This document shows positions 40,588 to 64,000 of a stretch of 64,000 nucleotides of DNA, in pieces. A program made the translations under genes and the position numbers. This stretch comes from Pseudobacter ginsenosidimutans (GTDB taxonomy: Bacteria > Bacteroidota > Bacteroidia > Chitinophagales > Chitinophagaceae). Positions within the stretch are counted from its first letter, which is position 1. Each line of letters begins with the position of its first letter. The DNA is taken from NCBI RefSeq assembly GCF_007970185.1, contig NZ_CP042431.1:6617342-6681341 (forward strand). Reading direction: 5' to 3'. The notes beneath the pieces are model-generated. The model was not told the origin of the DNA, made no database searches, and saw only the letters and a program-made list of their open reading frames with translations.

Positions 40588-40685
40588 GGTAAAAAAATAA
40601 ATATTCTGTTTTATGCAACAAAACCCAACTACAATTATACCATAAATACAAAGCCATGGCAAACAATTTTTTATAACAGAAAGGC

Positions 40686-40734
40686 ACTGTTCACCCACTG
40701 TATCAAAAGCGGACACAAAGTGTAACACTACTGT
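40686..40734 (+). promoter_or_regulatory. Phased ACTGT repeats and palindrome (candidate enhancer sites)
   Basis: ACTGT occurs at 40686-40690, 40697-40701 and 40730-40734, at intervals of 11 and 33 bp, so all face the same side of the helix. The palindrome AGTGT-A-ACACT lies at 40719-40729. The position, 55-105 bp upstream of the sigma-54-like element, fits enhancer sites for an NtrC-type activator. The motif is short, so chance cannot be excluded. Confidence 0.35.
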
Positions 40735-40789
40735 ACATGGTTCCCTGAACTCAGGCACTAACTAACTGGTTTTCACCACCCTTTTAAAC

Positions 40790-40804
40790 TGGCACAGCGT
40801 TGTG
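40790..40804 (+). promoter_or_regulatory. Sigma-54-like promoter element (imperfect)
   Basis: TGGCAC is followed by AGCG and TTGTG. The -24 half is perfect; the -12 half has TTGT rather than TTGC and the spacer is one base short of canonical. It is supported mainly by the adjacent NtrC-type regulator. Confidence 0.3.
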
Positions 40805-40859
40805 ATTAAGGAGATGCAGTTGTTTTTTTCTCTAAGTTGTTTTTTTAAGTACTCAGGGT

Positions 40860-40890
40860 CGCCCGGCCGGAACCTCCGGGCGGCTTTTTT
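40860..40890 (+). terminator. Intrinsic terminator in the leader of the export operon
   Basis: CGCCCGG (40860-40866) and CCGGGCG (40876-40882) form a 7-bp GC stem with a 9-nt loop, followed by GC and T6 (40885-40890). It lies between the putative promoter and the first gene, so it could act as an attenuator or end a short leader RNA. Confidence 0.75.
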
Positions 40891-40920: not shown

Positions 40921-42177
40921 GTGGATCGAGTTATTGCCAAAAAGAAATGGACCACCAAAAAGCTGCTGACCATCCTGGGCATCGCAGCTATCCTTATCCT
41001 CATCACTGCCAGTTATTATTTCACTTCCGGCAAGAGCCGTCTGAACGTGAACATGGAAAGGATCACCATCAGTGAGGTCCGTAAAGGCACATTCCAGGAA
41101 TTCATTCCTGTGAACGGCGTGGTGCTGCCCATCACCACCATTTACCTGGATGCCCTCGAAGGCGGCCGTGTGGAAGAGAAATTCGTGGAAGATGGCGCCG
41201 TGATGGTAAAAGGCCAACCGATCCTCCGTCTCTCCAATACAGATCTGGCCCTCAGCCTCGTGAACCAGGAAACCTCCGTGTACAACCTGCTCACACAAAT
41301 GCAGATCGCCAACAACGCCGCTCAACAGAATACCGTTACCAAGCTCAACCAGCTCACCGATGTGGAGAACACACTGAAAGAAGCTGAGCGCGAGTACAGC
41401 CTCAACAAAAAACTCTTTGCAGAGAAAGTGATCGGTTCACAGGAATTCAAGAAATCTGAAAACAATTATATCTACCAGGTGCAGAAGAAGAAACTAACGG
41501 ATGAGATCATGCGCCAGGACAGTGTTACCACGCGACAAAGCGTTGAACAGGCCCGCGAGCTCTACCAGCGCTCCAAAGCCACACTCGATCTTACCCGTAA
41601 GAAAGTGGGTGACCTGATCGTACGTGCACCGGTAGACGGCCAGCTCACTTCGCTTGAAGCAGAGATCGGCCAGAACAAGAACAAGGGAGAAAGACTCGGC
41701 CAGATAGATGTGCTCAGCGGTTTCAAGGTACGCGCAGATATCGATGAACATTATATCTCCCGCATCTACAACGGTCTCAGCGGTGAATTCACTTTCGCCA
41801 ACAAGACCTACAAGCTGAAGATCATTAAAGTATTCACACAGGTCACCAATGGCCGCTTCCAGGTGGATATGGAATTCGAAGGCGAAAAGCCACAAGGCAT
41901 CCGCCGCGGACAAACACTCCAGATCCGTCTCGCACTCAGCGATGAAACAGAAGCGCTGCTGTTGGCAAAAGGTGGTTTCTATCAGCAGACCGGCGGCAAT
42001 TCCATTTTCAAACTGAGCGATGATGGCAAAACTGCCTACAAGGTAGACATCCAGCTCGGCCGCCAGAATCCCGATTACTATGAAGTGCTGAAAGGACTGA
42101 AGCCCGGCGACAAAGTGATCACGAGCAGCTATGAGAACTACGACAAAATGCAGGAACTGATATTGAAAAAAGAATAA
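40921..42177 (+). CDS. Periplasmic adaptor (HlyD/MacA family) of the export operon
   Basis: 418 residues from GTG 40921. It starts with a basic cytoplasmic tip (DRVIAKKKWTTKK) and one membrane anchor (about 17-35). Periplasmic domains follow: a lipoyl/barrel-sandwich half (PILRLSNTDLALSL), a long coiled-coil hairpin (about 100-225), the second half-motif (VRAPVDGQLTSLEAEIGQ), and beta-barrel and membrane-proximal domains. It should bridge inner-membrane permeases to an outer membrane channel; no TolC-type gene is present in the window. It is the first gene and the only adaptor of an operon with at least nine permeases. Confidence 0.92.
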   Translation: MDRVIAKKKWTTKKLLTILGIAAILILITASYYFTSGKSRLNVNMERITISEVRKGTFQEFIPVNGVVLPITTIYLDALEGGRVEEKFVEDGAVMVKGQPILRLSNTDLALSLVNQETSVYNLLTQMQIANNAAQQNTVTKLNQLTDVENTLKEAEREYSLNKKLFAEKVIGSQEFKKSENNYIYQVQKKKLTDEIMRQDSVTTRQSVEQARELYQRSKATLDLTRKKVGDLIVRAPVDGQLTSLEAEIGQNKNKGERLGQIDVLSGFKVRADIDEHYISRIYNGLSGEFTFANKTYKLKIIKVFTQVTNGRFQVDMEFEGEKPQGIRRGQTLQIRLALSDETEALLLAKGGFYQQTGGNSIFKLSDDGKTAYKVDIQLGRQNPDYYEVLKGLKPGDKVITSSYENYDKMQELILKKE

Positions 42178-42189
42178 AAGCCACTTGTT

Positions 42190-42411
42190 ATGAAAATTCA
42201 AAACAGGATCATCTATACCTCCCTGCTCGTTATTGGCTGCGTGCTGTTTGCATGGCCCAACACCACAGGAGTTGTATGCGACGGGCAGCAGACTGCCAGG
42301 GCAACCTTCATCATCCGGCCTGAAATGGAAGAAGAAACAGAAAAAGAAGACATGAACCTGATAGAGCCATTGATGAACCTAATGCCATCCTGTAACCTTG
42401 GTATTCACTAA
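42190..42411 (+). CDS. Small exported peptide of unknown function in the export operon
   Basis: 73 residues, not recognised. It has a signal-like N-terminus (MKIQNRIIYTSLLVIGCVLFAW; a weak lipobox-like VIGC) followed by an acidic segment (EMEEETEKED) and two cysteines (CDGQQ, SCNLG). It starts 12 bp after the adaptor stop and ends 23 bp before the ATPase start, on the same strand, so it is very likely transcribed with them. It could be an accessory or a substrate of the exporter, but this is only position-based. Its shortness leaves doubt that it is expressed. Confidence 0.55.
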   Translation: MKIQNRIIYTSLLVIGCVLFAWPNTTGVVCDGQQTARATFIIRPEMEEETEKEDMNLIEPLMNLMPSCNLGIH

Positions 42412-42434
42412 ACCGTTTATACAAACAAAATCAT

Positions 42435-43112
42435 ATGATCAAGATCACCAATCTCGAAAAGGTTTACCGCACTGAAGAAGTGGAAACCGTTGCCCTCAAC
42501 AAACTCACCCTCGAAGTAAAAGAAGGCGAATTTGTAGCAGTGATGGGCCCTTCCGGTTGTGGTAAATCAACCTTGCTGAATATCCTGGGACTGCTTGACG
42601 ATCCCGATGCAGGCAGCTTCCTCTTCAACGGCATCGAGGTGGCGCATTTCAATGAAAGGAAAAGGGCTGATCTCCGCAAACACAATATCGGATTCGTATT
42701 CCAGAGCTTCAACCTCATCGATGAACTCACCGTATACGAAAATGTGGAACTGCCCCTCATCTATACCGGCGTAAAATCTGCAGACCGCAAGAAACGTGTG
42801 GACGAAGTGCTTGACAAAATGCAGATCATGCACCGCCGCAAACACTACCCGCAACAATTGTCCGGTGGTCAGCAACAACGTGTGGCCGTTGCCCGCGCCG
42901 TTGTCAACAATCCAAAACTGATCCTCGCGGATGAGCCTACCGGTAACCTGGATTCATCCAACGGTAATGAAGTAATGACACTGCTCACAGACCTGAACGA
43001 ACAAGGCACAACCATCGTGATGGTAACACACTCGGAGCACGACAGCCGCTTCAGTCACCGCATCATCCGCATGCTGGACGGACAGGCCGTTACCGAGAAC
43101 ATCATGGTATGA
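42435..43112 (+). CDS. ABC transporter ATPase (LolD/MacB type), sole ATPase of the array
   Basis: 225 residues with all motifs: Walker A GPSGCGKST, Q-loop FVFQSFNLI, signature LSGGQQQRVAVARA, Walker B LILADEPTGNLDS and switch His in VMVTHSEHD. It is the short, free-standing form of the MacB/LolD type-VII ATPase; in MacB itself this domain is fused to the permease. It precedes nine permease genes and no other ATPase occurs among them, so all permeases probably share it. An 11-bp hairpin spans its stop codon and a 70-bp gap follows, the largest in the operon from here on, consistent with extra ATPase production relative to the permeases. Confidence 0.96.
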   Translation: MIKITNLEKVYRTEEVETVALNKLTLEVKEGEFVAVMGPSGCGKSTLLNILGLLDDPDAGSFLFNGIEVAHFNERKRADLRKHNIGFVFQSFNLIDELTVYENVELPLIYTGVKSADRKKRVDEVLDKMQIMHRRKHYPQQLSGGQQQRVAVARAVVNNPKLILADEPTGNLDSSNGNEVMTLLTDLNEQGTTIVMVTHSEHDSRFSHRIIRMLDGQAVTENIMV

Positions 43113-43136
43113 TCAGTAACGGGATCTGATCATACC
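43106..43136 (+). promoter_or_regulatory. 11-bp hairpin across the ATPase stop codon
   Basis: GGTATGATCAG and CTGATCATACC form a perfect 11-bp stem with a 9-nt loop. The TGA stop (43110-43112) lies in the left arm. There is no immediate T-run (TTTTTT occurs 14 nt later at 43150-43155), so it may be a partial terminator or an RNA-stability or processing element. Confidence 0.65.
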
Positions 43137-43182
43137 CGTATAGCCATGATTTTTTAGCCCTGAACAAATCAAACGGACCACC

Positions 43183-45543
43183 ATGCTGAGAAACTACTTT
43201 AAAACCGCCTGGCGCAATCTCTGGAAGAACAGGTTCTACACCAGCATCAATATCGCCGGGCTGGCCATTGGACTGGCCGTAGGACTCATCATCCTTCTCT
43301 GGGTGAACGATGAAAGAAGCTATGACCGCTTTCATTCCAATCAGGAACAGATCTTCCGCGTGATCCCCGATGTTGGTTCCGGAGAAGCGAAACAAACCTG
43401 GGCCCATGTTCCCGCTCCCATTGCCACTTATAGCCAGCAGGTAGTTCCCGGTGTAAAGAACGCCGTGAGGATCGCAGATAATTACAGGCATAGTTTCTAC
43501 GCATACAACAACAATAAATTCAGAAGCCTCAAAAGCGTTTATACGGACCCGGGATTCTTTACCCTCTTCAGCTTCCGTCTCAAAGAAGGAAATCTCCAAC
43601 AACCATTCCCCGATAACAGCTCAGTGCTGATTACCGAATCAACCGCCAAAGCCATTTTCGGAACAGACAATCCCATCGGCAAAACCATCAGCGCCGATAA
43701 CAAAACGCCTTTCACCGTTCGCGGCATCCTGGAAGATTTCCCTTCCAATTCCACCATCCGGGCAGATATGCTCTTTCCACTAAGCATCCTGGAACAATCA
43801 TTCACCGCCAACGATTACTGGAAATCCTTCAACGAGAACTGGGGCGATTACAACTACGAAACCTTCCTGCAGGTTGAGCCCGGTACTTCCATTGCCGGTA
43901 TCGAAAAAAAGCTCAACAGTCTGCACAAGGAACATAATAAATTCGGCACTTCCGTTTATCATCTCCGTCCCATCAGCAGCATTCACCTGCACGGACTGGA
44001 TGGCAGATCAGGCAATGCGCAGATGGTGAACATCTTCATGGGTGTAGCCATTTTGCTGTTACTGATCGCCTGCATCAATTATGTGAACCTGAGTACCGCC
44101 CGGGCCATGCTGCGCGCCCGTGAAGTGAGTGTGAGAAAGATAGTAGGAGCAGGTAAGATCCAGCTCTTCTTCCAGTTCATTGCAGAAACCCTGATACTTT
44201 TTCTGATAGCCACTGTGCTGGCTATCGCGCTCATCAAAATATTGATGCCGCTCTACAATACTATCTCAGGGAAGAGCAATGAATTTGAATTGATGAATAC
44301 AAGCGTGCTCTCCACCATCGGCATCACCATCGCCGGAACACTGGTGGCAGCCAGCATCTACCCGGCCCTCCTGCTTTCCTCCTTCAAACCCATCCTGGCA
44401 CTGAAAGGAAAGATCAGCAATGGCATCGGAAATTCAGCCTTCAGAAAAACACTGGTGGTTACGCAATTCTCTTTTGCCGTGATGCTCATCATCAGCACCC
44501 TCATTATCGGTAAACAACTGAATTTCCTCCGCAGCAAAGAATTGGGATACGATAAATCACATGTCTTCTTTTTCCGAATGAATGAAGTGGAAAAACATTA
44601 CGAAGCCGTGAGGTCTGCGCTGCTGCAACAGCCAGGTATAGTTGAAGTTGCAGCCGCCAATGCCAGTCTCGCCAATTTCGGCAGCACTACCAGCGATACC
44701 GACTGGGACGGCAAGCCCGCCGACAAGGATTTCCTGGTGCATCCTGTTGAAGTGGACAAGAACTTTTTCCCCGTAATGAAGATGCAACTGGTGCAGGGCA
44801 AGGGCTTTACCGGCCTGCCTTCTGATACACTGGGACTGGTGCTGAATGAAACCGCTGTGCGCAATGCAGGCATCCAGGACCCCATCGGAAAATCTTTCAC
44901 CCTCTGGCAAACAAAAGCCACTATCATTGGTGTGGTAAAGGATTTTCATTACACCTCATTGAAGCGGGAGATCGAGCCCGCTGTTTTCTATATTACTGCT
45001 ACCCCTCCCAGTCTCATGTATGTGCGCACCAATGCAAAAGATGCTTCCAAAGCCATTGCCGCCACAGAAGCAGCATTCAAAAGATACAATGGCGACTGGC
45101 CATTCGAATATAAATTCCTGGATGAATCATTCGACAAGCTGTACCGTGCCGATCAGCGCACCGGTCTGCTCTTCAACATTTTTGCCGTGATCGCGATCCT
45201 CATTTCCTGCCTGGGCCTGTTTGGCCTGGCCACTTACACCACGCAGGTAAAGACCAGGGAGATCGGCATCCGTAAAGTGTTGGGCGCCTCCGTGGCCGGC
45301 GTAACCGGTATGCTGGCGAAGGATTTCGTGAAACTGGTAGCCATTGCCGTGATCATCGCCTCACCGCTTGCCTGGTATGCGATGAACTACTGGTTACAGA
45401 ATTTTGCCTACCGCACCGGAATTGGCGTATGGGTATTCCTGTTAGCAGGGGCCATCGCCATCCTGATCGCATTGATCACCGTGAGCTCGCAGGCCATCAG
45501 GGCCGCGCTCACCAACCCTGTGAAAAGCCTGAAAACCGAATAG
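43183..45543 (+). CDS. FtsX/MacB-type ABC permease 1 of the array
   Basis: 786 residues. All nine permeases share the same plan, described here: an N-terminal membrane segment preceded by a short Asn-Leu-Trp-Lys-Asn-type tip, a periplasmic MacB_PCD domain, an FtsX domain with three membrane segments, a second periplasmic domain, and a second FtsX domain, so each is an internal duplication of the FtsX half with about eight membrane segments. In this one the first FtsX loop reads LSTARAMLRAREVSVRKIVG (about residues 298-317) and the second TREIGIRKVLGASVAGV (about 685). It is of the group with IHLHGLDGRSGNA before the second segment. It follows the ATPase by 70 bp. The mechanotransmission-type function is inferred from MacB. 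Confidence 0.94.
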   Translation: MLRNYFKTAWRNLWKNRFYTSINIAGLAIGLAVGLIILLWVNDERSYDRFHSNQEQIFRVIPDVGSGEAKQTWAHVPAPIATYSQQVVPGVKNAVRIADNYRHSFYAYNNNKFRSLKSVYTDPGFFTLFSFRLKEGNLQQPFPDNSSVLITESTAKAIFGTDNPIGKTISADNKTPFTVRGILEDFPSNSTIRADMLFPLSILEQSFTANDYWKSFNENWGDYNYETFLQVEPGTSIAGIEKKLNSLHKEHNKFGTSVYHLRPISSIHLHGLDGRSGNAQMVNIFMGVAILLLLIACINYVNLSTARAMLRAREVSVRKIVGAGKIQLFFQFIAETLILFLIATVLAIALIKILMPLYNTISGKSNEFELMNTSVLSTIGITIAGTLVAASIYPALLLSSFKPILALKGKISNGIGNSAFRKTLVVTQFSFAVMLIISTLIIGKQLNFLRSKELGYDKSHVFFFRMNEVEKHYEAVRSALLQQPGIVEVAAANASLANFGSTTSDTDWDGKPADKDFLVHPVEVDKNFFPVMKMQLVQGKGFTGLPSDTLGLVLNETAVRNAGIQDPIGKSFTLWQTKATIIGVVKDFHYTSLKREIEPAVFYITATPPSLMYVRTNAKDASKAIAATEAAFKRYNGDWPFEYKFLDESFDKLYRADQRTGLLFNIFAVIAILISCLGLFGLATYTTQVKTREIGIRKVLGASVAGVTGMLAKDFVKLVAIAVIIASPLAWYAMNYWLQNFAYRTGIGVWVFLLAGAIAILIALITVSSQAIRAALTNPVKSLKTE

Positions 45544-45564
45544 GATCATTTCAAATCATCACCC

Positions 45565-47931
45565 ATGTTGCTCAACTATTTTAAAATTGGATTCAGGAAC
45601 TTGTGGAAGAATAAAAGGTTCTCTGCCATCAACCTCCTTGGGCTCTCCATCGGGATGGCGGCAGCTATTCTCATCCTGTTATGGATACAGCATGAGCTGA
45701 GCTTCGACCGTTTCTATACAGACCAGGAAAGAATATACAAAGTGATGAACAGGGCTGATTTCGATGGTAAACTACAGGTTTGGTCCGCTACTCCCAAAAT
45801 CCTGGGAAAGACCCTTAAAGCAGAGTATCCTGATATAGAATACATGAGCCGTGCAGACGACAACAATCTGCTATTGATAGCGGGCAACAAAAAGATCAAT
45901 GGAGCAGGCATGTTTGCTGATCCGGATTTCCTGCACATCTTCGATTTCAAACTCAAACAGGGAAGTGTAAGCAAAGCCCTGGACGGCACTTACTCCGTGG
46001 TACTCACCGCCACCCTTGCGAAAAAGCTCTTCGGCAATGAAGATCCTATGGGCAAAGTGATTTCCATGAACCCCTATAATGAAGCCAGCAACTTTACTGT
46101 AACAGGCGTTCTGGAAGACCTTCCCGACAATTCCCAGTTCAAATTCGAATTCATCCTGCCCTGGCTCTACATGACAAAACTGGGTTGGGACGATGACTGG
46201 TGGGGCAACAACTCCGTTTCCACTTTCGTAAAACTTAAACCTAACGTAAACGAAGCAACGCTGAATGAAAAAATAAAGAAAGTCACTATCACCCATTCCA
46301 ATAACGATGAAGACACGGAAGTGTTCCTTCATCCCGTTTCCAAACTGAGGCTTTGGGAACAATTCGATAATGGAGTGAATGTTGGCGGCAGGATCTCTCT
46401 CGTACGATTATTTGGTGTGATAGCCGGCCTGATATTGTTGATCGCCTGTATCAATTTCATGAATCTGAGTACCGCCCGCAGCGAGAAGAGAGCGCGTGAA
46501 GTAGGTATTCGAAAAGTAGTAGGCGCTCAGCGCGGTTCACTGATCGGGCAGTTCCTCGGAGAATCAGTGCTGCTCACCTTCATTGCCGGATTGGTGGCCC
46601 TGATCCTTGTGCACCTGAGCCTTCCGGCTTTCAACAACCTTGTTACCAAAGTACTCTTCGTCCCCTACACAAATATCTATTTCTGGCTGATGGCAGCTGG
46701 TTTTGTTCTGTTCACCGGTTTACTGGCCGGAAGCTATCCTGCATTCTATCTTTCTTCATTCCGTCCCATACGTGTGCTGAAAGGAGCTGCGCATAAAGTA
46801 CAGGCACTGATCACTCCCAGAAAATTATTGGTGGTAACACAGTTCACCATTGCCATCGTGCTGATCGTATCCACCATCATCATTCGCCAGCAGATCAAAC
46901 ATGCGCAGGACCGCGATGCTGGCTACAACAGAAGCGATCTTGGTTATATCCACCTCACAAAGGAGATCAAAAAGAATTATGATGTGATCGCACAGGCTCT
47001 GATCAGTTCAGGCGCAGTTTTGTCTATGAGCAAGACCAGCGCGCCCCTCACCGAGAACTGGAGCAATAGCTGGGGCATCTCCTGGGATGGGAAAGACGAG
47101 AGCTCCAAAATTGTTCTCGACCGGTTCTGTACCGATGGCAACCTCGTAAAGACCGCGGGCTTCACACTCATCAAAGGACGTGATATCAACCTGAAAGAAT
47201 TTCCGGGAGACTCCCTCTCTGCCCTCATCAACGAATCCGCAGCCAGTTTAATGGGATTCAAGGACCCACTGGGCAAGACCTTCGGCGATATGAATAAAAC
47301 ATGGACCATCGTTGGCGTGGTGAAAGACGTGATCCTTGCATCCCCTTATCTCCCCAAATTGCCCATGGTGATTGCAGGACCAAAAGGCTGGTTCAATGTA
47401 TTACACATACGTCTGAATCCTGAACGATCCACAGCAGACAATCTAAAAGCCGTGGAAGCTGTTTACAAAAAGTTCAATCCCGATTTTCCTTTCAATTTCA
47501 AATTCATCGATACTGAATACGAGAAGAAATTCAATGACGAAAAAAGGATCGCCACACTGGCCAGCCTTTTTGCCGGCCTCACCATCTTCATCAGTTGCCT
47601 GGGACTATTTGCCCTGGCCACTTATATGGCAGAGAACAGGATCAAGGAAATTGGCGTAAGGAAAGTGCTGGGCGCATCAGTGCTCAGCATCACTACCCTG
47701 TTGAGCAAAGATTTCCTGGCGCTGGTGCTGGTATCACTGGTGATCGCCACACCCATTGCCTGGTGGGCCATGCATACCTGGTTGCAGGATTACACTTACC
47801 GGATCAGCATTCAGTGGTGGGTATTCATCCTCGCAGGTGCGGGAGCCATTTTGATTGCGCTCGCTACAGTGAGCTACAATTCCATCAAAGCGGCCATGAG
47901 CAATCCAACCAAATCACTGAGAAGCGAATGA
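45565..47931 (+). CDS. FtsX/MacB-type ABC permease 2 of the array
   Basis: 788 residues, 21 bp after permease 1. The first FtsX loop is LSTARSEKRAREVGIRKVVG (about 297) and the second NRIKEIGVRKVLGASV (about 686). It differs from its predecessor in the periplasmic domains: it has GNKKINGAGMFADPDF in the first and a Trp-rich stretch (ENWSNSWGISWDGKDE) in the second, features shared with permeases 7 and 8, so it belongs to a distinct subgroup of the array. It keeps YPAFYLSSFRPIRVLKG between the halves. No frame disruption is seen. Confidence 0.94.
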   Translation: MLLNYFKIGFRNLWKNKRFSAINLLGLSIGMAAAILILLWIQHELSFDRFYTDQERIYKVMNRADFDGKLQVWSATPKILGKTLKAEYPDIEYMSRADDNNLLLIAGNKKINGAGMFADPDFLHIFDFKLKQGSVSKALDGTYSVVLTATLAKKLFGNEDPMGKVISMNPYNEASNFTVTGVLEDLPDNSQFKFEFILPWLYMTKLGWDDDWWGNNSVSTFVKLKPNVNEATLNEKIKKVTITHSNNDEDTEVFLHPVSKLRLWEQFDNGVNVGGRISLVRLFGVIAGLILLIACINFMNLSTARSEKRAREVGIRKVVGAQRGSLIGQFLGESVLLTFIAGLVALILVHLSLPAFNNLVTKVLFVPYTNIYFWLMAAGFVLFTGLLAGSYPAFYLSSFRPIRVLKGAAHKVQALITPRKLLVVTQFTIAIVLIVSTIIIRQQIKHAQDRDAGYNRSDLGYIHLTKEIKKNYDVIAQALISSGAVLSMSKTSAPLTENWSNSWGISWDGKDESSKIVLDRFCTDGNLVKTAGFTLIKGRDINLKEFPGDSLSALINESAASLMGFKDPLGKTFGDMNKTWTIVGVVKDVILASPYLPKLPMVIAGPKGWFNVLHIRLNPERSTADNLKAVEAVYKKFNPDFPFNFKFIDTEYEKKFNDEKRIATLASLFAGLTIFISCLGLFALATYMAENRIKEIGVRKVLGASVLSITTLLSKDFLALVLVSLVIATPIAWWAMHTWLQDYTYRISIQWWVFILAGAGAILIALATVSYNSIKAAMSNPTKSLRSE

Positions 47932-47951
47932 TCATTTAAAAACTTATCCCA

Positions 47952-50402: not shown

Positions 50403-50418
50403 CCGAAAAGTACAAGTC

Positions 50419-52842: not shown

Positions 52843-52873
52843 ACCATCATAGCCATTCCTTAAAACAACCTTT

Positions 52874-55264: not shown

Positions 55265-55276
55265 AATCTGTAAGCC

Positions 55277-57697
55277 ATGTTCCGGAACTATTGGAAGATC
55301 GCCTTAAGGAGTTTGTGGAAGAACAAGAGCTTCTCAGCCCTCAACATTACCGGGCTGGCAATGGGCCTCGCGGCCTGTCTCCTCATCCTCCTGTATGTGA
55401 AAGATGAACTGAGCTTCGACAAGTACAATACAAATGCGGACCGCATTTACCGGATCGATACCGATATCCGTTTCGGCGGTTCCGATTTCCTGATCGCTAC
55501 CGGTCCGGATCCGCTGGCCAAAGTACTGAAAGATGAGTTCCCGCAGATCGAAGCCGTGGCGCGCTTTCGCGGGCAGGGCAACCAGCTCTTCCGCAAGGGC
55601 ACGGAGAATATCATGGAAGACCGCGTGATCTATGCAGATGCTTCCATCTTTGATGTATTCACATTGCCTGTACTTGATGGCAATCCGCGGCGGGCGCTGC
55701 AACAGCCCAATACCGTTGTGATCACGGAATCCACAGCCAGAAAATATTTCGGCAAAACAACAGTGGCCGGGCAATACCTGGAAACAGGCAATCGTAATTT
55801 GCAGATTGCCGGCGTGATCAGGGATCTTCCTGCAACCTCCCATTTCAAATACGATTTCTTCATATCACTGGAAACACTGGAGGAAAGCCGCCGCAACCAC
55901 TGGCTCGGCAATAATTTCAACACCTATTTTTTATTGAAGGAAGGCGCTGGCCCCGAAACTGTGCAGGCAGGTTTACGTGGCATCGTTGTAAAACATGTTG
56001 CCCCTCAATTGAAGGGCCTCCTCAACAGTACACTGGATGAACTGGAAAAAAAGGGTGATCATATCCGTTATGATATCCGTCCGCTTACCTCCATCCATCT
56101 TCATTCAGACCTTATAGCTGAACTGGGAGCGAACAGCAATGTGCAATATGTGTATATTTTTTCTGCTGTTGCCTTGTTCATCCTCCTGATCGCATGTGTC
56201 AATTTCATGAACCTTTCCACAGCCAGGTCTTCCAACCGAGCACGTGAAGTGGGTGTAAGGAAAGTGATGGGCTCATTACGCAGGAGCCTGGTGATGCAGT
56301 TCCTGATGGAATCCATTGTTATCAGCATCGTATCCCTGCTGCTGGCGTTGATCCTGGCCTGGTCCTTCCTTCCCTGGTTCAACCAGCTAAGCGGCAAGTC
56401 CATAGATTTTGCAAAAGAGATAACTCCGGGTGTTGGCCTCATCCTCATTGGCTTTGCCATTGTGGTGGGCATCATTGCAGGCAGTTATCCGGCCTTCTTC
56501 CTCTCCTCCTTCCAGCCCATCAAAGTACTGAAAGGAAAGCTGGCAGCAGGTTTCAGAACAGGCTGGATGCGGAATTCACTGGTGGTTTTCCAGTTCGGCA
56601 TTTCTATTTTTCTCATTATTGGCACGGTGGTCATTTACAATCAGCTCAATTATATCCGCAATAAGAAAACAGGGTTCAACCGCGAACAGGTGCTGATTGT
56701 GAATGATGCACAGATCCTCGGCAATAAATCGACACTGTTCAAGGACGAAGTGAAAAGATCAGGGATCGCCAGAGATGTTACCATGACCGGCTACCTGCCT
56801 ACCAGCTCCGACCGCAATACAGATGTTGTGTTCAAAGATGCTACCGCCACATCTTCCAACAGTGTTTCATTGCAGATATGGGCAGTAGATGAAGACTATG
56901 TGCCTACGCTCGGCATGGAAATGGCAGCGGGCAGGAATTTCAGTCGTGATTTCCCAACGGATTCTTCCGCCGTGCTGATCAATGAAGCAGCAGCCAAAAT
57001 ATTCGGCTATACCAATCCGGTAGGTCAGACCATCTACATGCCAGATGGTTATATCGGCAGCAGCAATTCTCCCTACACTATCGTAGGTGTGGTAAAGGAT
57101 TTCAATTTCAACAGCATGCGCGAGACTGTTGGTCCCCTGCTGTTGCAGAACCGCTTCGACAGAGGCTCGGTAGCCATCCGGATTCCCGCAGGCAACCAGC
57201 AAACTGCTGTTGACAAAGTTCGCGATATCTGGAAAGGGATTGCGCCGGACCAACCATTCCGCTTCACTTTCATGGATGAGGATTTCAACAGGATCTACGA
57301 GGCCGAACAACGCACCGGCAAGATCTCACTCGCCTTTTCGATACTGGCCGTGATGATCGCCTGTCTTGGATTATTCGGGCTGGCTGCCTATGCAGCCGAG
57401 CAACGCACGAAAGAGATCGGCATCCGCAAAGTATTGGGTGCATCCGTTGGCGGCATTGTTCAGTTGTTATCAAAGGACTTTCTGAAACTGGTATTCATTG
57501 CAGAGCTCATCGCTTTCCCCTTTGCCTGGTGGGCAATGAACAACTGGTTGCAACATTTTGCATACAGAAGCGCCATTAGCTGGTGGGTATTTGCCGGAAC
57601 AGCTATTGTTACGTTATTGATCGCCATACTGACCGTGAGTTTTCAGGCTATCCGTGCTGCATTGAGTAATCCTGTAGAGAGCCTGAGAAATGAATAA
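55277..57697 (+). CDS. FtsX/MacB-type ABC permease 6 of the array
   Basis: 806 residues, only 12 bp after permease 5, the tightest spacing in the array. The first FtsX loop is LSTARSSNRAREVGVRKVMG (about 309) and the second QRTKEIGIRKVLGASVGGI (about 702). IHLHSDLIAELGANSNVQ before the second membrane segment groups it loosely with permease 1. The second periplasmic domain has a Thr/Ser-rich loop (TGYLPTSSDRNTDVVF). The C-terminus ends NPVESLRNE, where the others have NPVKSL or NPTKSL. Confidence 0.94.
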   Translation: MFRNYWKIALRSLWKNKSFSALNITGLAMGLAACLLILLYVKDELSFDKYNTNADRIYRIDTDIRFGGSDFLIATGPDPLAKVLKDEFPQIEAVARFRGQGNQLFRKGTENIMEDRVIYADASIFDVFTLPVLDGNPRRALQQPNTVVITESTARKYFGKTTVAGQYLETGNRNLQIAGVIRDLPATSHFKYDFFISLETLEESRRNHWLGNNFNTYFLLKEGAGPETVQAGLRGIVVKHVAPQLKGLLNSTLDELEKKGDHIRYDIRPLTSIHLHSDLIAELGANSNVQYVYIFSAVALFILLIACVNFMNLSTARSSNRAREVGVRKVMGSLRRSLVMQFLMESIVISIVSLLLALILAWSFLPWFNQLSGKSIDFAKEITPGVGLILIGFAIVVGIIAGSYPAFFLSSFQPIKVLKGKLAAGFRTGWMRNSLVVFQFGISIFLIIGTVVIYNQLNYIRNKKTGFNREQVLIVNDAQILGNKSTLFKDEVKRSGIARDVTMTGYLPTSSDRNTDVVFKDATATSSNSVSLQIWAVDEDYVPTLGMEMAAGRNFSRDFPTDSSAVLINEAAAKIFGYTNPVGQTIYMPDGYIGSSNSPYTIVGVVKDFNFNSMRETVGPLLLQNRFDRGSVAIRIPAGNQQTAVDKVRDIWKGIAPDQPFRFTFMDEDFNRIYEAEQRTGKISLAFSILAVMIACLGLFGLAAYAAEQRTKEIGIRKVLGASVGGIVQLLSKDFLKLVFIAELIAFPFAWWAMNNWLQHFAYRSAISWWVFAGTAIVTLLIAILTVSFQAIRAALSNPVESLRNE

Positions 57698-57724
57698 AAA
57701 CAGAAAAGAATAAAACGCCATAGC

Positions 57725-60106
57725 ATGCTCATCAATTCCCTGAAGATTGCCTGGCGCAATCTGATGAAAAGTAAATCTTTTTCACTGATCAATATCCTGG
57801 GACTATCTACCGGCATGGCCGTAGTGATCCTAATCGGGCTCTGGATACATGATGAGCTCAGCTATGATCAGTATCACAAGAATTACAGCGCTATTGGTCA
57901 GATGATGACCATTCAGAAAAGGGATGGGAAATACAATGCGCACACATATATCGCTGCGCCGCTGGCGCAGGCATTGAGAACGGAATATCCCGATGATTTC
58001 AAGGCCGTGGCCCTCACCTCACCCAAAAGCAACTGGTTGCTGGGATATGGAGACAAGAAATTCAACAGGGACGGGATGTGGGTGGAACCTGAATTCCCGG
58101 AAATGATGGGACTGAAAATGATAAAGGGGAATTATGCAGGTCTCAAAGATCCCAGTTCTATTTTTTTATCACAGTCGATGTCTTCCGCACTTTTCGGGAA
58201 TGATGATCCGATCAACAAAACCATTCGCGTCAACAACACGCAGGATGTGAAAGTAGCTGGCATCTACGAGGATCTTCCTCACAATACATCACTGAACGGT
58301 GCTGCCTATTTCGGCACCTGGTCAACCTTCGAAGCGCTGAACGGCATTGCCAGGGATGCAGACGATGCCTGGGGCATGCACAGTTTCCTCTGCTTTGTGC
58401 AACTTAATGCCGCTGATAATTTTGAGCAGGTCACCAAAAAAGTGGAACATATTCCCATGAAACATTTGGTGGCTGCGGAATCAGGCGAAGAAAGCGTAGT
58501 AGTGCATCCGATGAAGGACTGGTACCTGCGCAGTGAATTCAAAACAGGTAAGGCAAGTGGCGGCCGCATTCAGTTTGTCTGGCTCTTCGGTATCATCGGG
58601 GCTTTTGTATTATTGCTGGCCTGTATCAATTTCATGAATCTCAGCACCGCCCGCTCTGAAAAAAGAGCCAGGGAAGTGGGCATCAGGAAAGCCATCGGCT
58701 CCATGCGGCAACAACTTATCAGGCAGTTCCTGACTGAATCTGTGCTGGTGGCGATCGTATCCGCCATCATCTCTATAATACTCGTTTACATCAGTATCGG
58801 CTGGTTCAATCAGCTGGCCGCAAAAGAAATAAACATCCTCTGGGACCAGCCACTGTTCTGGATCTCAATTGCAGGGTTCACCATCATTACCGGTCTGCTC
58901 GCTGGTAGTTATCCCGCATTCTATCTTTCTTCTTTCCAGCCCGTAAAAGTTTTGAAAGGCACATTCAGGTCAGGAAGGTTCGCGGCTATTCCCCGCAAAG
59001 TGCTGGTGGTGCTGCAATTCACTGTGAGTATTGTGCTGATCATCGGAACTATTGTGGTGCTTCGGCAGATCCAGCATGCACGCAACCGGCCTGTGGGCTT
59101 CGCACGTGAAGGACTGATCCAGATCTTCATCAATACACCTGAGCTTCGCGGCCATTATGATGTGCTGCGCGATGACCTGTTGAAAACCGGCGTGGTGGCC
59201 AATATGGGGCAATCATCTTCCCCTGTCACCAATCTCTGGGCATCACAGGTAGGTTTCCAGTGGCAGGGAATGGATCCCAATTCCGTTCCTGTTTTTGGCA
59301 CTACTGCCGTTACACATGATTTCGGAAATACTGTTCAGTGGAATATCACCAAAGGAAGGGATTTCAGCAGGGAATTCGCATCCGACTCAAGCGGACTGGT
59401 ACTGAATGAAGCTGCTGTGGAGCTCACCGGCTTCAAGGATCCGGTTGGTCAGATCATCAATTGGAATGGCGACAGGTACCATGTGATCGGCGTGGTGAAG
59501 AATATCATCATGACATCGCCTTATCAGCCTGTGCAGCCCGGCATCTTTTTGCTCAGCTATAACTGGAGCGAAGTGATCAATATCCGCATCAAACCCGAAA
59601 CCAGCTTACCCACAGCGCTGGCATCCATAGAAAAAGTTTTCAGGAAACATGATCCTGCTTCTCCCTTCGAATACAAGTTTGCAGATGAGCTGTATGGTTC
59701 CAAATTCGCTGCCGAGGAAAGGATCGGTAAGCTCGGTGGATTCTTTGCAGCGCTGGCCATTTTCATCAGCTGCCTGGGAATATTCGGACTGGCTTCCTAT
59801 GTAGCCGAGCAACGCGTGAAAGAGATCGGAGTACGCAAGGTTTTAGGAGCCTCCGTGTTAAGCATCTGGCAATTGTTATCGAAGGATTTTCTGCTGCTGG
59901 TATTCATCGCATTCCTGATTTCCACGCCGCTTGCTTATTTGTTCATGAAGAACTGGCTGCAAAGCTACCAGTACCGTACAGAGCTGAGCTGGTGGTTATT
60001 TGGCGTAGCCCTGGGCGGCGCATTGATCATCACTATTTCCACAGTAAGCTACCAGGCAATACGAGCGGCCCTGAGCAATCCCGTCAAAAGTCTGAGAAGC
60101 GAATAA
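57725..60106 (+). CDS. FtsX/MacB-type ABC permease 7 of the array
   Basis: 793 residues, 27 bp after permease 6. It is clearly closest to permease 8 along the whole length: RKVLVVLQFTVSI with LIIGTIVV, HARNRPVGF, a matching SSPVTNLW/VGFQWQGMDP segment, THDFGNTVQWNITKGRDFS, and SPYQPVQPGIFLLSYNW. The first FtsX loop reads LSTARSEKRAREVGIRKAIG (about 304), the second QRVKEIGVRKVLGASVLSI (about 690). Together with permeases 2 and 8 it forms the Trp-rich subgroup. Confidence 0.94.
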   Translation: MLINSLKIAWRNLMKSKSFSLINILGLSTGMAVVILIGLWIHDELSYDQYHKNYSAIGQMMTIQKRDGKYNAHTYIAAPLAQALRTEYPDDFKAVALTSPKSNWLLGYGDKKFNRDGMWVEPEFPEMMGLKMIKGNYAGLKDPSSIFLSQSMSSALFGNDDPINKTIRVNNTQDVKVAGIYEDLPHNTSLNGAAYFGTWSTFEALNGIARDADDAWGMHSFLCFVQLNAADNFEQVTKKVEHIPMKHLVAAESGEESVVVHPMKDWYLRSEFKTGKASGGRIQFVWLFGIIGAFVLLLACINFMNLSTARSEKRAREVGIRKAIGSMRQQLIRQFLTESVLVAIVSAIISIILVYISIGWFNQLAAKEINILWDQPLFWISIAGFTIITGLLAGSYPAFYLSSFQPVKVLKGTFRSGRFAAIPRKVLVVLQFTVSIVLIIGTIVVLRQIQHARNRPVGFAREGLIQIFINTPELRGHYDVLRDDLLKTGVVANMGQSSSPVTNLWASQVGFQWQGMDPNSVPVFGTTAVTHDFGNTVQWNITKGRDFSREFASDSSGLVLNEAAVELTGFKDPVGQIINWNGDRYHVIGVVKNIIMTSPYQPVQPGIFLLSYNWSEVINIRIKPETSLPTALASIEKVFRKHDPASPFEYKFADELYGSKFAAEERIGKLGGFFAALAIFISCLGIFGLASYVAEQRVKEIGVRKVLGASVLSIWQLLSKDFLLLVFIAFLISTPLAYLFMKNWLQSYQYRTELSWWLFGVALGGALIITISTVSYQAIRAALSNPVKSLRSE

Positions 60107-60130
60107 TACTAATTTTTAAAACACCCGCAT

Positions 60131-62506
60131 ATGTTCCGCAATTACCTGATCACAACCTTGAGGTCACTGCGCAGAAGCAGGGTCACCAGTATCATCAATA
60201 TCACTGGCCTTTCACTCGGAATGGCAGTTGTGATGCTCATTGCACTCTGGGTTCTGGATGAACTTAATCACGATAAGGAACATTCGAACTTTGATACATT
60301 AGGACAGGTTTATGTAAATCAGCAGATCAGTGGCAACAAGAACGTGATGATGGCCAATGCCTATCCTTTCGCCAATGAGCTGCGTACAAAATTACCGCAG
60401 GACTTTAAGGCAGTTGCACTTGCTTCCTGGCATATGCAAAGCCTCTTTGCTGTTGGTGATAAAAAGCTCAACAGCGACGGCATGTGGGTTCAGGAAGATT
60501 TCCCTTCTATGATCACAGTGAATATGATCAGGGGTGATATCAATGCTTTGAAAGACCCTCATGCAGTGCTGATCAATGAAAGTCTCGCCAAAGCCCTGTT
60601 TGCTGATGAAGATGCATTGGGGAAACCTTTTCGGGTGGGGAAAGATTTTGAAGTGGCAGTTGCAGGTGTGTATAAGGATCTTCCCCGTAGCTCCAGTTTT
60701 TACAATGTAAATTTTTTAGGGAGCTGGAAAGGTTATGAGATCATGCAGCCATGGATCAAAAACAATTCGGATCGATGGGACAATCATTCTTTCCAACTTT
60801 TTGTGCAGCTCAACCAGCCCAATGCATACAATGCGATCAACAATAAGATCAGCACTTTACTGAATCCTTATTTCAAAAACCCAAACTGGAAAGAATCATT
60901 AATGATCCTGCCCATGAAGGATTGGTATCTGCGAGGTGAATTCAAAAATGGTGAAAGAGCTGGCGGCAGGATCAGATTTGTTTGGCTCTTCGGCGCCATT
61001 GGGGTTTTTGTTTTGTTACTCGCCTGCATCAATTTCATGAACCTTGCAACAGCCAGATCAGAAAAGCGATCCAAAGAGGTAGGCATCCGCAAAACACTCG
61101 GCTCACAGAAAAAAGAACTGATATTTCAATTCCTGGGTGAAAGCCTTGCAGTGGCGCTGATCAGTTTGGTGATGGCTTTGATACTGGTATCCCTGGTTAT
61201 GCCCTGGTTCAATGAAATTGCGGCCAAAGACATGCACATCCCCTGGAACAAGCCACTGTTCTGGAGCTGCGTATTGGGTTTTACTGCCTTCACCGGTTTG
61301 CTCGCAGGCAGCTACCCTGCATTTTATCTTTCTGCATTCAATCCCATAAGAGTTTTTCGTGGTTCATTCAAAGCAGGAAGATTTGCTGCTTTACCAAGAA
61401 AAGTATTGGTTGTGCTGCAATTCACCGTCAGTATTACACTCATCATCGGAACCATTGTAGTAAAAAGACAAATTGATCATGCCAGGAACAGACCTACTGG
61501 TTTCGATAATCAGCGAATGGTGCAGATCAATATGAATACGGATGAGTTGAGAAAACATTATGATGTGATTCGCCAGGAATTGCGCCAGACGGGATTTGCA
61601 GCCGATATGGCAACCGCTTCCTCTCCCATCACCAGTTTATACAGCACACAGAGTGGTTATAACTGGCAAGGTAAGGACCCGGATTTTATTGCTGATTTCG
61701 GCACTATCGGCATCACACACGATTATGGGAAAACAGTAAAATGGGAAATTTTACAGGGCAGGGATTTTTCAAGAAGCTTCCAAGACAGTGCATCCATGAT
61801 CGTGAATGAATCCGCGTTGAAAATCCTGCAATTTAAAACCCCTCTCGGAGCAACCATAAAATGGGGGGAACGCAATTATGAGGTGGTGGGTGTTGTAAAA
61901 GATATTGTGATGACCTCTCCCTATAATCCTGTTGAGCCAACCATCTATATACTCAGTTATGATTGGGCCAACAGCATGCTCGTTCGCCTGGGAGACAATA
62001 AGAGTATTCCCGATGCTATTGCCGGAATGGAACCCATTTTCAAAAAACACAACCCTTCTGCGCCTTTTCAGTACAGGTTTGTGGATGAAGTACATGGGAA
62101 GAAATTTGCTTCGGAAGAAAGAGTTGGCAAGCTCTCCGGCATCTTTGCCATGCTGGCTATCCTTATCAGTTGTCTCGGCATTTTCGGCCTTGCAACATTT
62201 GTTGCGGAACAGCGTCTTAGAGAAGTGAGCATTCGTAAGATCCTGGGCGCTTCTGTTTATAGCATCTGGCAATTATTGTCGAAAGATTTCTGTTTGCTGA
62301 TACTGCTCTCATTTGCGCTGGCAGCGCCACTGGCCTGGCATTTCATGAATATCTGGTTACAGGATTATGAATACCGTACAACACAGCCCTGGTGGATCTT
62401 TGCGATAGCTTTTGGCGTAGCATTATTCCTCACGATCGTTACAGTGAGCACACAAGCTGTCAAAGCTGCGCTCGGTAATACAGTGAAGGCGCTCAAACGC
62501 GACTAG
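60131..62506 (+). CDS. FtsX/MacB-type ABC permease 8 of the array
   Basis: 791 residues, 24 bp after permease 7 and its probable duplicate. The first FtsX loop is LATARSEKRSKEVGIRKTLG (about 303), the second QRLREVSIRKILGASVYSI (about 690); several otherwise invariant positions have drifted (LAT for LST, EVS for EIG, and the tail NTVKALKRD instead of NPVKSLRSE). The codon choice looks more AT-rich than in the earlier copies. These differences suggest relaxed or altered constraint after duplication. The reading frame is intact. Confidence 0.93.
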   Translation: MFRNYLITTLRSLRRSRVTSIINITGLSLGMAVVMLIALWVLDELNHDKEHSNFDTLGQVYVNQQISGNKNVMMANAYPFANELRTKLPQDFKAVALASWHMQSLFAVGDKKLNSDGMWVQEDFPSMITVNMIRGDINALKDPHAVLINESLAKALFADEDALGKPFRVGKDFEVAVAGVYKDLPRSSSFYNVNFLGSWKGYEIMQPWIKNNSDRWDNHSFQLFVQLNQPNAYNAINNKISTLLNPYFKNPNWKESLMILPMKDWYLRGEFKNGERAGGRIRFVWLFGAIGVFVLLLACINFMNLATARSEKRSKEVGIRKTLGSQKKELIFQFLGESLAVALISLVMALILVSLVMPWFNEIAAKDMHIPWNKPLFWSCVLGFTAFTGLLAGSYPAFYLSAFNPIRVFRGSFKAGRFAALPRKVLVVLQFTVSITLIIGTIVVKRQIDHARNRPTGFDNQRMVQINMNTDELRKHYDVIRQELRQTGFAADMATASSPITSLYSTQSGYNWQGKDPDFIADFGTIGITHDYGKTVKWEILQGRDFSRSFQDSASMIVNESALKILQFKTPLGATIKWGERNYEVVGVVKDIVMTSPYNPVEPTIYILSYDWANSMLVRLGDNKSIPDAIAGMEPIFKKHNPSAPFQYRFVDEVHGKKFASEERVGKLSGIFAMLAILISCLGIFGLATFVAEQRLREVSIRKILGASVYSIWQLLSKDFCLLILLSFALAAPLAWHFMNIWLQDYEYRTTQPWWIFAIAFGVALFLTIVTVSTQAVKAALGNTVKALKRD

Positions 62507-62548
62507 AATACTAACGATCATAAATACCTGACATCCTAAACAAAGTAT

Positions 62549-64000
62549 ATGCTGAAGAACTATTTTATTGTAGCCATCCGTAACCTGAAACGGAACAAGG
62601 TGTTCAGCGTCATCAATATCGTAGGGCTTGCCCTGGGACTCACCTGCAGCCTGCTGATCATGTTGTGGGTATTGGATGAGCGGAGCATGGACCAGTTCCA
62701 TGTGAACAAGGACCGCTTGTTCTCTGTATACGAAAGACAGTTCTTCGACAATAAAGTGCAGGGAGGTTTTGGCACGCCCGGACCACTGGCCCGTGAGCTG
62801 AAACAGATCCTTCCGGAAGTGGAACACAGCGCCTCCATCGGTTGGGAAGACCAGACAACTTTTCAACTGGGCGATAAGATCCTGCAAATGACCGGCAGTT
62901 ATTCAGACAGTGATTTCTTCAAGATGTACAGTTTTCCATTACTGGAAGGCACTGCACAATCTGCGTTGGCAGATCCCCTGAGCCTCGCTATTTCCCGGAA
63001 GATGGCCACAGCCTTCTTCGGCAGTACGCAGGCCGCGATCGGCAAAACACTGCGCGCAGACGACAGGCGCGATTTCAAGATCACTGCCGTGTATGAAGAC
63101 ATGCCAAAGAACAGCACCGCACACTGGGACTATATCATCAACTGGAACTACCTGATGGAAACAGCGGACTGGATCAAACAATGGGATAACAATGGTCCCA
63201 GAACAACCCTGCTGTTGCACAAAAATGCCGATCCCGCCAAAGTGGAAGCGAAGATCAAAAATTATATGGATCAGCACCTGGACAAAAACGGGGGCTGGCG
63301 CATCGAGCTATACATGATGAAATTCTCCGACCGGTACCTGTATGGCAATATGAAGGATGGTGTACTCAGTGGAGGCCGGATCGAATACGTGCGTTTATTC
63401 AGCCTGATAGCTGTATTCATTCTGCTGATCGCCTGTATCAATTTCATGAACCTCACCACCGCCAGATCGATCAAGCGTTCCCGTGAGATCGGCGTGAGAA
63501 AAGTGGTGGGCGCTGTCAGGTTCGGATTGGTTAGGCAGTTCCTCGGAGAAGCCATCGTAGTGGCTGGCATTGCCATGATAGTGGCTCTGGCACTACTTTT
63601 CCTGGCTTTGCCCTTATTCAATCAGCTGACAGAAAAACAAATTGCCTTTCCATTTGCAGACTGGACTTTCTGGGCCTGCATCCTGGGACTGCTGCTGATA
63701 ACCGGACTGCTGAGTGGTAGTTATCCTGCTCTCTTCCTTTCATCATTCAAACCCATCGTGGTATTGAAAGGTGTGTTGAAAGTAAGCTCTTCCGCCAACT
63801 GGTTCAGGAAAGGACTGGTGGTGTTCCAGTTCACCCTGTCTTCTTTACTGATCATCGGCACCATCATTATTTCACAGCAGGTGCGCTATATCCAAAACAA
63901 GAACCTGGGTTATAACCGCGAGAATATAGTTAAAGTAATGCTGCTGGGCGAGCCTGAAAAATATTACAGTCTGTTCAAACAACAGGTGGGTCAGCTTCCT
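62549..64000 (+). CDS. FtsX/MacB-type ABC permease 9 of the array (3' end outside window)
   Basis: 484 residues are visible from ATG 62549, 42 bp after permease 8, and the frame is open to the right edge. It has the shared plan: N-terminal NYFIVAIRNLKRNKVFSVIN, a first periplasmic domain, the first FtsX loop LTTARSIKRSREIGVRKVVG (about 301), YPALFLSSFKPIVVLKG, and the start of the second periplasmic domain. GGRIEYVRLF before the second membrane segment groups it with permeases 2, 7 and 8. Whether the array continues cannot be seen. Confidence 0.92.
   Translation, partial: MLKNYFIVAIRNLKRNKVFSVINIVGLALGLTCSLLIMLWVLDERSMDQFHVNKDRLFSVYERQFFDNKVQGGFGTPGPLARELKQILPEVEHSASIGWEDQTTFQLGDKILQMTGSYSDSDFFKMYSFPLLEGTAQSALADPLSLAISRKMATAFFGSTQAAIGKTLRADDRRDFKITAVYEDMPKNSTAHWDYIINWNYLMETADWIKQWDNNGPRTTLLLHKNADPAKVEAKIKNYMDQHLDKNGGWRIELYMMKFSDRYLYGNMKDGVLSGGRIEYVRLFSLIAVFILLIACINFMNLTTARSIKRSREIGVRKVVGAVRFGLVRQFLGEAIVVAGIAMIVALALLFLALPLFNQLTEKQIAFPFADWTFWACILGLLLITGLLSGSYPALFLSSFKPIVVLKGVLKVSSSANWFRKGLVVFQFTLSSLLIIGTIIISQQVRYIQNKNLGYNRENIVKVMLLGEPEKYYSLFKQQVGQLP

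Follow-up and report, generated by a model that had tools for sequence, protein, structure and literature searches.

We describe here an export system encoded in a 64,000-nucleotide stretch of the Pseudobacter ginsenosidimutans genome, hereafter the window (RefSeq assembly GCF_007970185.1, contig NZ_CP042431.1; C1:6617342-6681341 of G000, the source genome, a single contig of 7.8 Mb; in our labels, G denotes a genome and L the locus of a related stretch). Its operon encodes a periplasmic adaptor, an ATP-binding cassette (ABC) ATPase and nine successive permeases, P1 to P9 (Table 1). We think it likely that these genes specify a tripartite exporter with a shared chassis, in which exchangeable, pre-dimerized permeases are used under a single sigma54 regulon. 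It is very probable that many permeases draw on the same ATPase and adaptor, and this sharing seems to extend to permeases encoded outside the operon.

An earlier, sequence-only reading had proposed an operon with one adaptor, one ATPase and at least nine permeases, the ninth leaving the window. Pfam, NCBIfam and the open reading frames (ORFs) bear out this succession within the window: all nine permeases are of the MacB_PCD/FtsX type, and eight are complete inside it. Extension to the right shows that the ninth is complete outside and that the array counts exactly nine. The TolC-type gene that this extension was meant to seek is indeed present, directly after a second, distinct ATPase gene that starts 125 bp behind P9 with a promoter-like site of its own, so that the operon cannot be credited with a single ATPase; an acyltransferase gene follows TolC. 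All genes named earlier were found, whereas a 73-residue ORF and a divergent kinase-regulator pair had been missed. The permease genes lie 12 to 42 bp apart, and 70 bp separate ATPase 1 from P1. The closest named relative of the adaptor is that of Pseudoflavitalea rhizosphaerae (99% identity).

A conserved core with changing permeases

An adaptor search found 166 relatives, of which 80 loci were kept. ATPase 1 (nucleotide-binding domain 1, NBD1) follows the adaptor in 79 of them, the remaining one ending at a contig edge, and a permease follows NBD1 in 77; one locus is cut there, and the short contig L077 passes straight to ATPase 2 (NBD2). Since 77 of the 80 loci repeat the succession of adaptor, ATPase 1 and permease, the layout is not due to chance. 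A divergent regulator gene lies within 6 kb upstream of the adaptor in 72 loci (four others are cut and four have none), and a kinase gene adjoins it in most relatives. Arrays were fetched from nine genomes, and in eight of them NBD2 stands at the end of the array.

The chassis ATPases change little among the related loci (median identity to those of the window, 89% for NBD1 and 80% for NBD2), while the permease content of the arrays turns over, ranging from none (L077) or one up to eleven. L068, a Mucilaginibacter locus, shows a single array permease. The array of G003, a genome with a 99% identical adaptor, only has equivalents of P2, P3, P4, P5, P8 and P9; that of G001 comprises eleven permeases, four of them P9-like. 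Sliding identity ruled out that the first permease of G003 is a recombination chimera of P1 and P2. A tree spanning 124 permeases of nine genomes places the nine of the window in eight clades, P7 and P8 falling into one. Array and dispersed permeases are mixed on this tree: their labels change 24 times (well-supported branches force at least 19 of these), versus about 41 times in shuffles. The 124 include one permease that is cut short (G003 at 645029); three that straddle fetched ends (G001 at 1263181, G002 at 5398442, G004 at 67269) and a half-length one (G011 at 64511) stand outside the set. Two other arrangements were seen: a locus from another family has its permease array behind the adaptor, with no NBD1 in the fetched stretch (L183, G140 C1:3834000-3853999), and the source genome has a separate, ordinary operon of TolC, adaptor, ATPase and MacB-type permease of about 400 residues (L028, C1:3056652-3061310).

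Permeases built from two halves, and two kinds of ATPase

Profile comparison aligns the N-terminal half of the permease with its C-terminal half (E=1.3e-26), and hydropathy across the 124 aligned permeases gives 4+4 membrane segments, hence eight transmembrane (TM) segments. Both halves carry a coupling motif, in which E314/G322 and E693/G701 are invariant and R/K occurs at 0.94-1.0 among the 124. The AlphaFold model, which covers P1 alone, without partner proteins, and was built from an 85-sequence alignment (pLDDT 90.0, pTM 0.84), has eight long helices at the expected places; the linking helix pair between the halves is absent from it, residues 399 to 415 holding only a five-residue helix. 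By Foldseek the fold is of type VII, with Escherichia coli YbbP as the best match over the whole length (E 1.1e-19, TM-score 0.48), followed by MacB and a Porphyromonas permease domain. As judged from alignment and model, each permease of about 790 residues is a pre-fused pair of MacB-like halves, and because it already consists of two such halves, one chain should suffice to serve two ATPases. A review of MacB describes fused permeases as having two interceding helices and always a separate ATPase (PMC5985334), and YbbP is reported to act as one permease with two ATPases (PMC12646458). Among the 17 permeases of the source genome, mean identity is 0.24-0.25 in the periplasmic parts versus 0.43-0.47 in the membrane and cytoplasmic parts.

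NBD1 and NBD2 are 49% identical. All 96 NBD1 rows have intact Walker A and LSGGQ motifs; the set of Walker A, signature, Walker B and H-loop is recognized in at least 95 of these and in all 23 NBD2 rows (a few rows being second copies of one locus). Twenty-five diagnostic positions, each more than 90% fixed within its group, set the two apart; they include residues 91-93 just past the Q-loop, residue 106, two positions in the signature helix and D173N in the D-loop. These are places where such ATPases commonly contact the coupling helix or the partner ATPase, so that the two unequal halves of the permease are likely to be served by one NBD1 and one NBD2.

A common upstream site

In upstream regions we recognized a palindrome, TGTAYC-N5-CGRACA, as an upstream activating sequence (UAS) accompanied by a TGGCAY box. 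The sigma54-like promoter lies about 70 or 91 bp downstream of the UAS, and the arrangement is found ahead of the adaptor, of ATPase 2 and of many dispersed permeases. The best UAS match reaches 11 or 12 of the 12 fixed positions in 70 of 72 regulator-adaptor intervals, and the A-rich core columns, which were not selected for, are conserved too. Tandem UAS pairs, 21-22 bp apart, precede ATPase 2 in several loci.

A matrix of 62 sites, from which the tested genomes were left out, was applied at a score threshold of 14; it matches 1.6% of random 300-bp stretches, true sites included. Such a site precedes 28 of the 68 permeases that do not stand directly behind another permease or NBD1, versus none of the 56 that do (Fisher P 2e-9). 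These groups differ by three members each way from the array and dispersed groups of the tree and of the ATPase-neighbor count, a few array members standing behind inserted genes (three of the 68) and a few dispersed ones being paired. ATPase 2 is preceded by such a site in 12 of 23 rows, two rows being the same locus.

We then scanned whole genomes for the composite of UAS, 50-78 bp and TGGYAY. It gave 28 matches in 19 relatives, versus 4 for the reversed pattern. Among 45 more genomes, the 22 with adaptor and permease yielded 42 rows (39 distinct sites) and the other 23 yielded 4, the reversed pattern giving 5 across all 45. In system-bearing genomes, 61 of 65 composites (26 of 26 plus 35 of 39) stand ahead of a permease, adaptor or ATPase 2; the corresponding count is none of six for genomes that lack a close permease (G121 among these has a distant set, and G008 is classed by its permease only). 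The four composites elsewhere precede a LiaG-like lipoprotein gene (L195), two small peptides just before an adaptor (L197), a 126-residue ORF upstream of an htpG-like gene (L194) and no recognized gene (L205).

Across 70 loci the promoter consensus is TGGCAY-N4-TT. Its -24 box is conserved by site selection; T12 is present in 69 of 69, the rest of the -12 box being degenerate. The canonical sigma54 promoter is TGGCAC-N5-TTGC, and one of the three exact copies in the source genome lies about 34 bp before a dispersed permease (C1:4159386-4161794). The regulator carries the sigma54 interaction domain PF00158, and RpoN (sigma54) is present in the source genome, where two separate genes for it are found (C1:1545169-1545642 and C1:3849346-3849819). 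General scans gave no excess between positions 45000 and 64000 of the window, either of canonical sigma70 promoters (15 versus 24.4 in shuffles) or of terminators (20 versus 18.2), and the strict sigma54 consensus with one mismatch occurred 3 times in the window, against 6.16 expected; the promoter signal emerged only from the UAS and footprinting. The kinase has two N-terminal hydrophobic segments joined by KGWY, with almost no periplasmic loop, a membrane layout that we take to be that of intramembrane-sensing kinases. An independent promoter survey reports an enrichment of sigma54 sites at COG0577 permeases of Bacteroidia, with a suggested role under antimicrobial stress (PMC12316311), which makes the sigma54 link itself less new; the sigma54 regulon of Flavobacterium psychrophilum is reported to take in envelope stress functions (PMC9723704).

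Permeases outside the operon

The source genome encodes eight further full-length permeases outside the operon (17 in all), with no transporter ATPase within 3 kb. Over the nine genomes, an ABC ATPase lies within 3 kb of one of the 68 permeases outside the main arrays; its neighbors there are two proteins (528 and 506 residues) with two ATPase stretches each, presumably ABC-F proteins by their size. Single permeases paired with an ATPase of their own, which would have spoken against a shared ATPase, were sought and not found within this distance. Slightly farther away, at 3.3 and 3.7 kb, the source genome has two more ATPases near the permeases at 4159386 and 6346978; the one near 4159386 looks, we assume, like that of a MetNIQ importer.

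In a sample of 148 genomes of the order, with a permease threshold of E at most 1e-60, permeases were found in 28 genomes and the adaptor in 30. All 28 permease-bearing genomes have the adaptor, no case of a permease without it occurring among the 148, and 118 genomes have neither at E 1e-60. G109 and G121, which have only the adaptor, show the weakest adaptors (31-32% identity); here we observed a distant compact set (L185 and L186) of adaptor, NBD1-like ATPase and one 889-residue permease, with 29-30% identity. Common regulation, co-occurrence and the lack of local transporter ATPases thus support the sharing of ATPase and adaptor, apparently also beyond the operon; the combinatorial dimers that the sequence-only reading attached to it are not supported. 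A Bacteroidota genome can contain tens of ADOP-like permeases, with 28 and 33 copies in two Dyadobacter species according to one report (PMC11573002). Our literature search found no assigned function or ATPase for the ADOP-like permeases of Bacteroidota, and a search of the open-licence literature found no description of permease arrays or of a shared chassis.

Proposed mechanism and its alternatives

We propose that the membrane kinase would sense envelope trouble and activate the NtrC-type regulator, which would bind the observed UAS, TGTATC-N5-CGRACA, as an enhancer and switch on the sigma54-like promoters of the adaptor-ATPase 1-permease array, of ATPase 2-TolC and of many dispersed permeases. 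The resulting MacAB-TolC-like pump would comprise one permease, two ATPase subunits, the adaptor and TolC, the ATPase subunits probably being ATPase 1 and ATPase 2, one per coupling helix. As the permeases differ mainly in their periplasmic heads, substrate range could be swapped while the chassis is reused. That the system has both an adaptor and TolC speaks for export across the two membranes, and the expelled cargo would probably be membrane-active peptides or amphiphiles. LiaG belongs to a cell-wall-stress operon. The kinase layout, LiaG-like proteins near the system, the sigma54 survey and the F. psychrophilum regulon point indirectly to envelope defense, a role to which we give roughly even chances.

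Several observations weigh against a shared chassis under one regulon. Among the 68 dispersed or first permeases, 40 have no recognized UAS, and these include all ten rows of this kind in G010 as well as three of eight in the source genome. Transcription of permeases from promoters of their own under unrelated control had been named earlier as a refuting case; the promoters recognized at dispersed permeases are of the same kind as that of the operon, but some of those 40 may be under unrelated control. Families f10 and f14 are nearly devoid of the composite (one match in eight genomes) despite having adaptor and permeases. The UAS alone, with at most one mismatch, occurs no more often across the genome than the reversed control pattern (102 versus 103) and was dropped as a marker, only the composite being specific. 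The -12 element is degenerate, mostly with 4-bp spacing, so that the use of sigma54 is uncertain. NBD2 follows the array at 9 of 13 visible right ends (not in L058, L084, L087 and L094), a recount that rules out its always closing the array and slightly lowers our confidence in the shared chassis; in G010 it is unlinked to the array, ATPase 2 and TolC lying on another contig, still with the composite ahead. Both ATPases have intact motifs, so homodimers are possible, and the source genome has other ABC ATPases 44-48% identical to NBD1. Finally, the co-occurrence (Fisher P 3e-28) is inflated by shared ancestry.

Among the alternatives, the system could be a mechanotransmitter or sensor array, like FtsEX, YbbAP-TesA or BceAB, whose permeases use the ATPases to drive periplasmic enzymes or signal damage and export nothing. 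The type VII fold, the loop-poor kinase, and the LiaG-like and PQQ beta-propeller secreted proteins found in some arrays would suit this idea; however, the adaptor belongs to the conserved unit and TolC to most units with a visible right end, as in efflux pumps, and we regard it as unlikely. It is unlikely, too, that the chassis serves the array permeases only, the dispersed ones being relics or served by other ATPases. The UAS-less permeases and the other ATPases of the genome fit such a division, but the dispersed genes are full-length, have no internal stops in the listed rows and keep both coupling motifs; moreover, they interleave with array members on the tree, and the family occurs only in adaptor-bearing genomes.

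A dedicated exporter of a self-made peptide (such as a ribosomally synthesized and post-translationally modified peptide, as for the darobactin exporter) or of the 73-residue secreted protein is an improbable alternative. The best named NCBIfam relatives of the adaptor and both ATPases are DarC and DarD, and small proteins occur in the operon and, as WNIQR peptides, before the adaptor in L105, L107 and L197. Against this stand Dar scores far under the cut-offs, the lack of a peptide-maturation enzyme among the few neighbors scanned (a scan that was not exhaustive) and the number of permeases, up to 17, which a single cargo would not require. The model of the sequence-only reading, in which different permeases form homo- or heterodimers that each combine with the shared ATPase, is very improbable and was set aside, because each permease already contains both halves and two coupling motifs (half-against-half alignment and eight-TM model), which makes such dimers unnecessary, and its best whole-length fold match, YbbP, is reported as one permease with two ATPases (PMC12646458), even though LolCE-type heterodimers are described in the superfamily (PMC5985334) and many permeases share one operon.

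Small proteins, inserted genes and features of the locus

Fifty-one of 84 gaps between adaptor and NBD1 are at least 140 bp long, and an ORF of 48 or more residues is present in 46 of these, versus 4.35 in shuffles (at most 7). In 44 gap ORFs the N terminus is hydrophobic; the middle is variable, and many tails resemble SPLxxFxLxI. The 73-residue protein of the window could act as accessory subunit, substrate or signal. In L105, L107 and L197 the adaptor is directly preceded by pairs of peptides of about 62 residues with a motif like FTAADLWNIQRQ (WNIQR) and basic tails, those of L197 standing behind a UAS and promoter of their own. The two gap proteins and three WNIQR peptides scanned matched nothing in Pfam or NCBIfam at E up to 0.01.

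LiaG-like secreted proteins, scoring below the cut-off, are encoded inside permease arrays in four loci and behind a UAS in L195, where the protein has TSGGNI repeats. PQQ beta-propeller secreted proteins were seen between permeases (L105:15548-16855 and L173:8216-9466). Considered as a clue to cargo, the inserted genes are mixed (LiaG-like/DUF4097, PQQ propeller, others), with no single theme.

The regulator ORF was listed as 39229-40758, which is over-extended; its translation suggests a start at 40587. The hairpin between promoter and adaptor is a possible attenuator. In a strict scan, hairpins precede the adaptor in 18 of 81 loci, not always in the same register, and the stems differ in some other species.

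Table 1. Features of the locus, in window positions unless a contig or locus is named
Feature	Position	Strand	Basis
Histidine kinase, divergent	37880..39226	-	Pfam (PAS, HATPase_c), hydropathy
Sigma54-type response regulator: receiver, AAA+ with GAFTDA loop, Fis helix-turn-helix	39229..40587	-	Pfam, translation
UAS 1, TGTATCAAAAGCGGACA	40699..40715	+	Palindrome match
Second, weaker UAS-like palindrome, TGTAACACTACTGTACA, 22 bp past UAS 1	40721..40737	+	Sequence reading
Sigma54-like promoter, TGGCACAGCGTTGTG, 91 bp past UAS 1	40790..40804	+	Sequence; consensus of 70 loci
Terminator-like GC-rich hairpin and T-run, between promoter and adaptor start	40858..40890	+	Hairpin scan
Periplasmic adaptor (membrane fusion protein), HlyD/MacA-type	40921..42177	+	Pfam, NCBIfam
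73-residue small protein, signal-peptide-like N terminus, fast-evolving middle	42190..42411	+	ORF comparison
ABC ATPase 1 (NBD1), motifs intact	42435..43112	+	Pfam, NCBIfam, alignment
Permease P1, fused two-half MacB-like, 8 TM	43183..45543	+	Pfam, NCBIfam, half alignment, AlphaFold
Permease P2	45565..47931	+	ORF list, Pfam, NCBIfam
Permease P3	47952..50402	+	ORF list, Pfam, NCBIfam
Permease P4	50419..52842	+	ORF list, Pfam, NCBIfam
Permease P5	52874..55264	+	ORF list, Pfam, NCBIfam
Permease P6	55277..57697	+	ORF list, Pfam, NCBIfam
Permease P7	57725..60106	+	ORF list, Pfam, NCBIfam
Permease P8	60131..62506	+	ORF list, Pfam, NCBIfam
Permease P9	62549..64000, on past the window to 64915 equivalent (C1:6679890-6682256)	+	
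Tandem UAS and TGGCAC promoter	Outside the window, between P9 and ATPase 2		Sequence
ATPase 2 (NBD2)	Outside the window, 65041-65709 equivalent (C1:6682382-6683050)		
TolC-type gene	Outside the window, 65748-67091 equivalent (C1:6683089-6684432)		
WNIQR peptides	L105 9325 and 9544; L107 9341 and 9566; L197 137 and 379		
LiaG-like proteins	L060:14979-16055; L120:16127-17167; L137:14958-15980; L181:14192-15130; L195:1389-2465		

Comparison with known systems

Like MacAB-TolC, the system combines an adaptor and a TolC-type outer membrane factor with MacB-type periplasmic and FtsX membrane domains. In MacAB-TolC, an ATP-driven efflux system for drugs or peptides, the ATPase is fused to a homodimerizing 4-TM permease, whereas here the ATPases are separate and of two kinds, the permeases are fused doubles with eight TM, and many permeases occur per chassis. 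LolCDE, with two separate permeases, one ATPase and no TolC, does not correspond to the system either.

DarC and DarD of the darobactin exporter DarBCD are the closest named NCBIfam equivalogs of the adaptor and both ATPases, and this exporter comes second for the permeases; none of the DarB, DarC and DarD equivalog cut-offs is reached, the scores lying far below. The darobactin exporter has one permease. YbbAP of E. coli and BceAB also have a fused, pseudosymmetric type VII permease with separate ATPases (PMC12646458). YbbP differs in having 10 TM, two linking helices and a hydrolase partner, as opposed to eight TM, no linkers in the P1 model, an adaptor and TolC here.

By sequence, the permeases resemble the ADOP family (TIGR03434), with a full-length match of about 800 residues, internal duplication of the FtsX module and many dispersed copies without an ATPase; the eight permeases scanned score 254-342 bits, below the cut-off of 622.3. 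By definition the ATPase gene is not adjacent in ADOP, as is the case within 3 kb for 67 of the 68 dispersed permeases; unlike ADOP, nine permeases here share an operon with ATPases, adaptor and TolC. In this system, ADOP-like orphan permeases would acquire identified partners together with a regulator and a DNA site, and the findings point to a tripartite pump of modular build that uses two kinds of ATPase. If this is true, a bacterium could widen its export range by one added gene, because ATPases, adaptor, channel and control are already supplied.

In group II ECF transporters, too, one energizing module is reported to serve specificity subunits encoded elsewhere in the genome (PMC7145868). 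These are importers with unrelated subunits, and the system described here is not a member of the group. By analogy, and with chances that we judge slightly better than even, it may be their export counterpart: a sigma54-switched engine of two ATPases, adaptor and TolC, time-shared by permeases from across the genome, which would give orphan ADOP-type permeases their ATPases, with the small secreted protein as accessory, substrate or signal.

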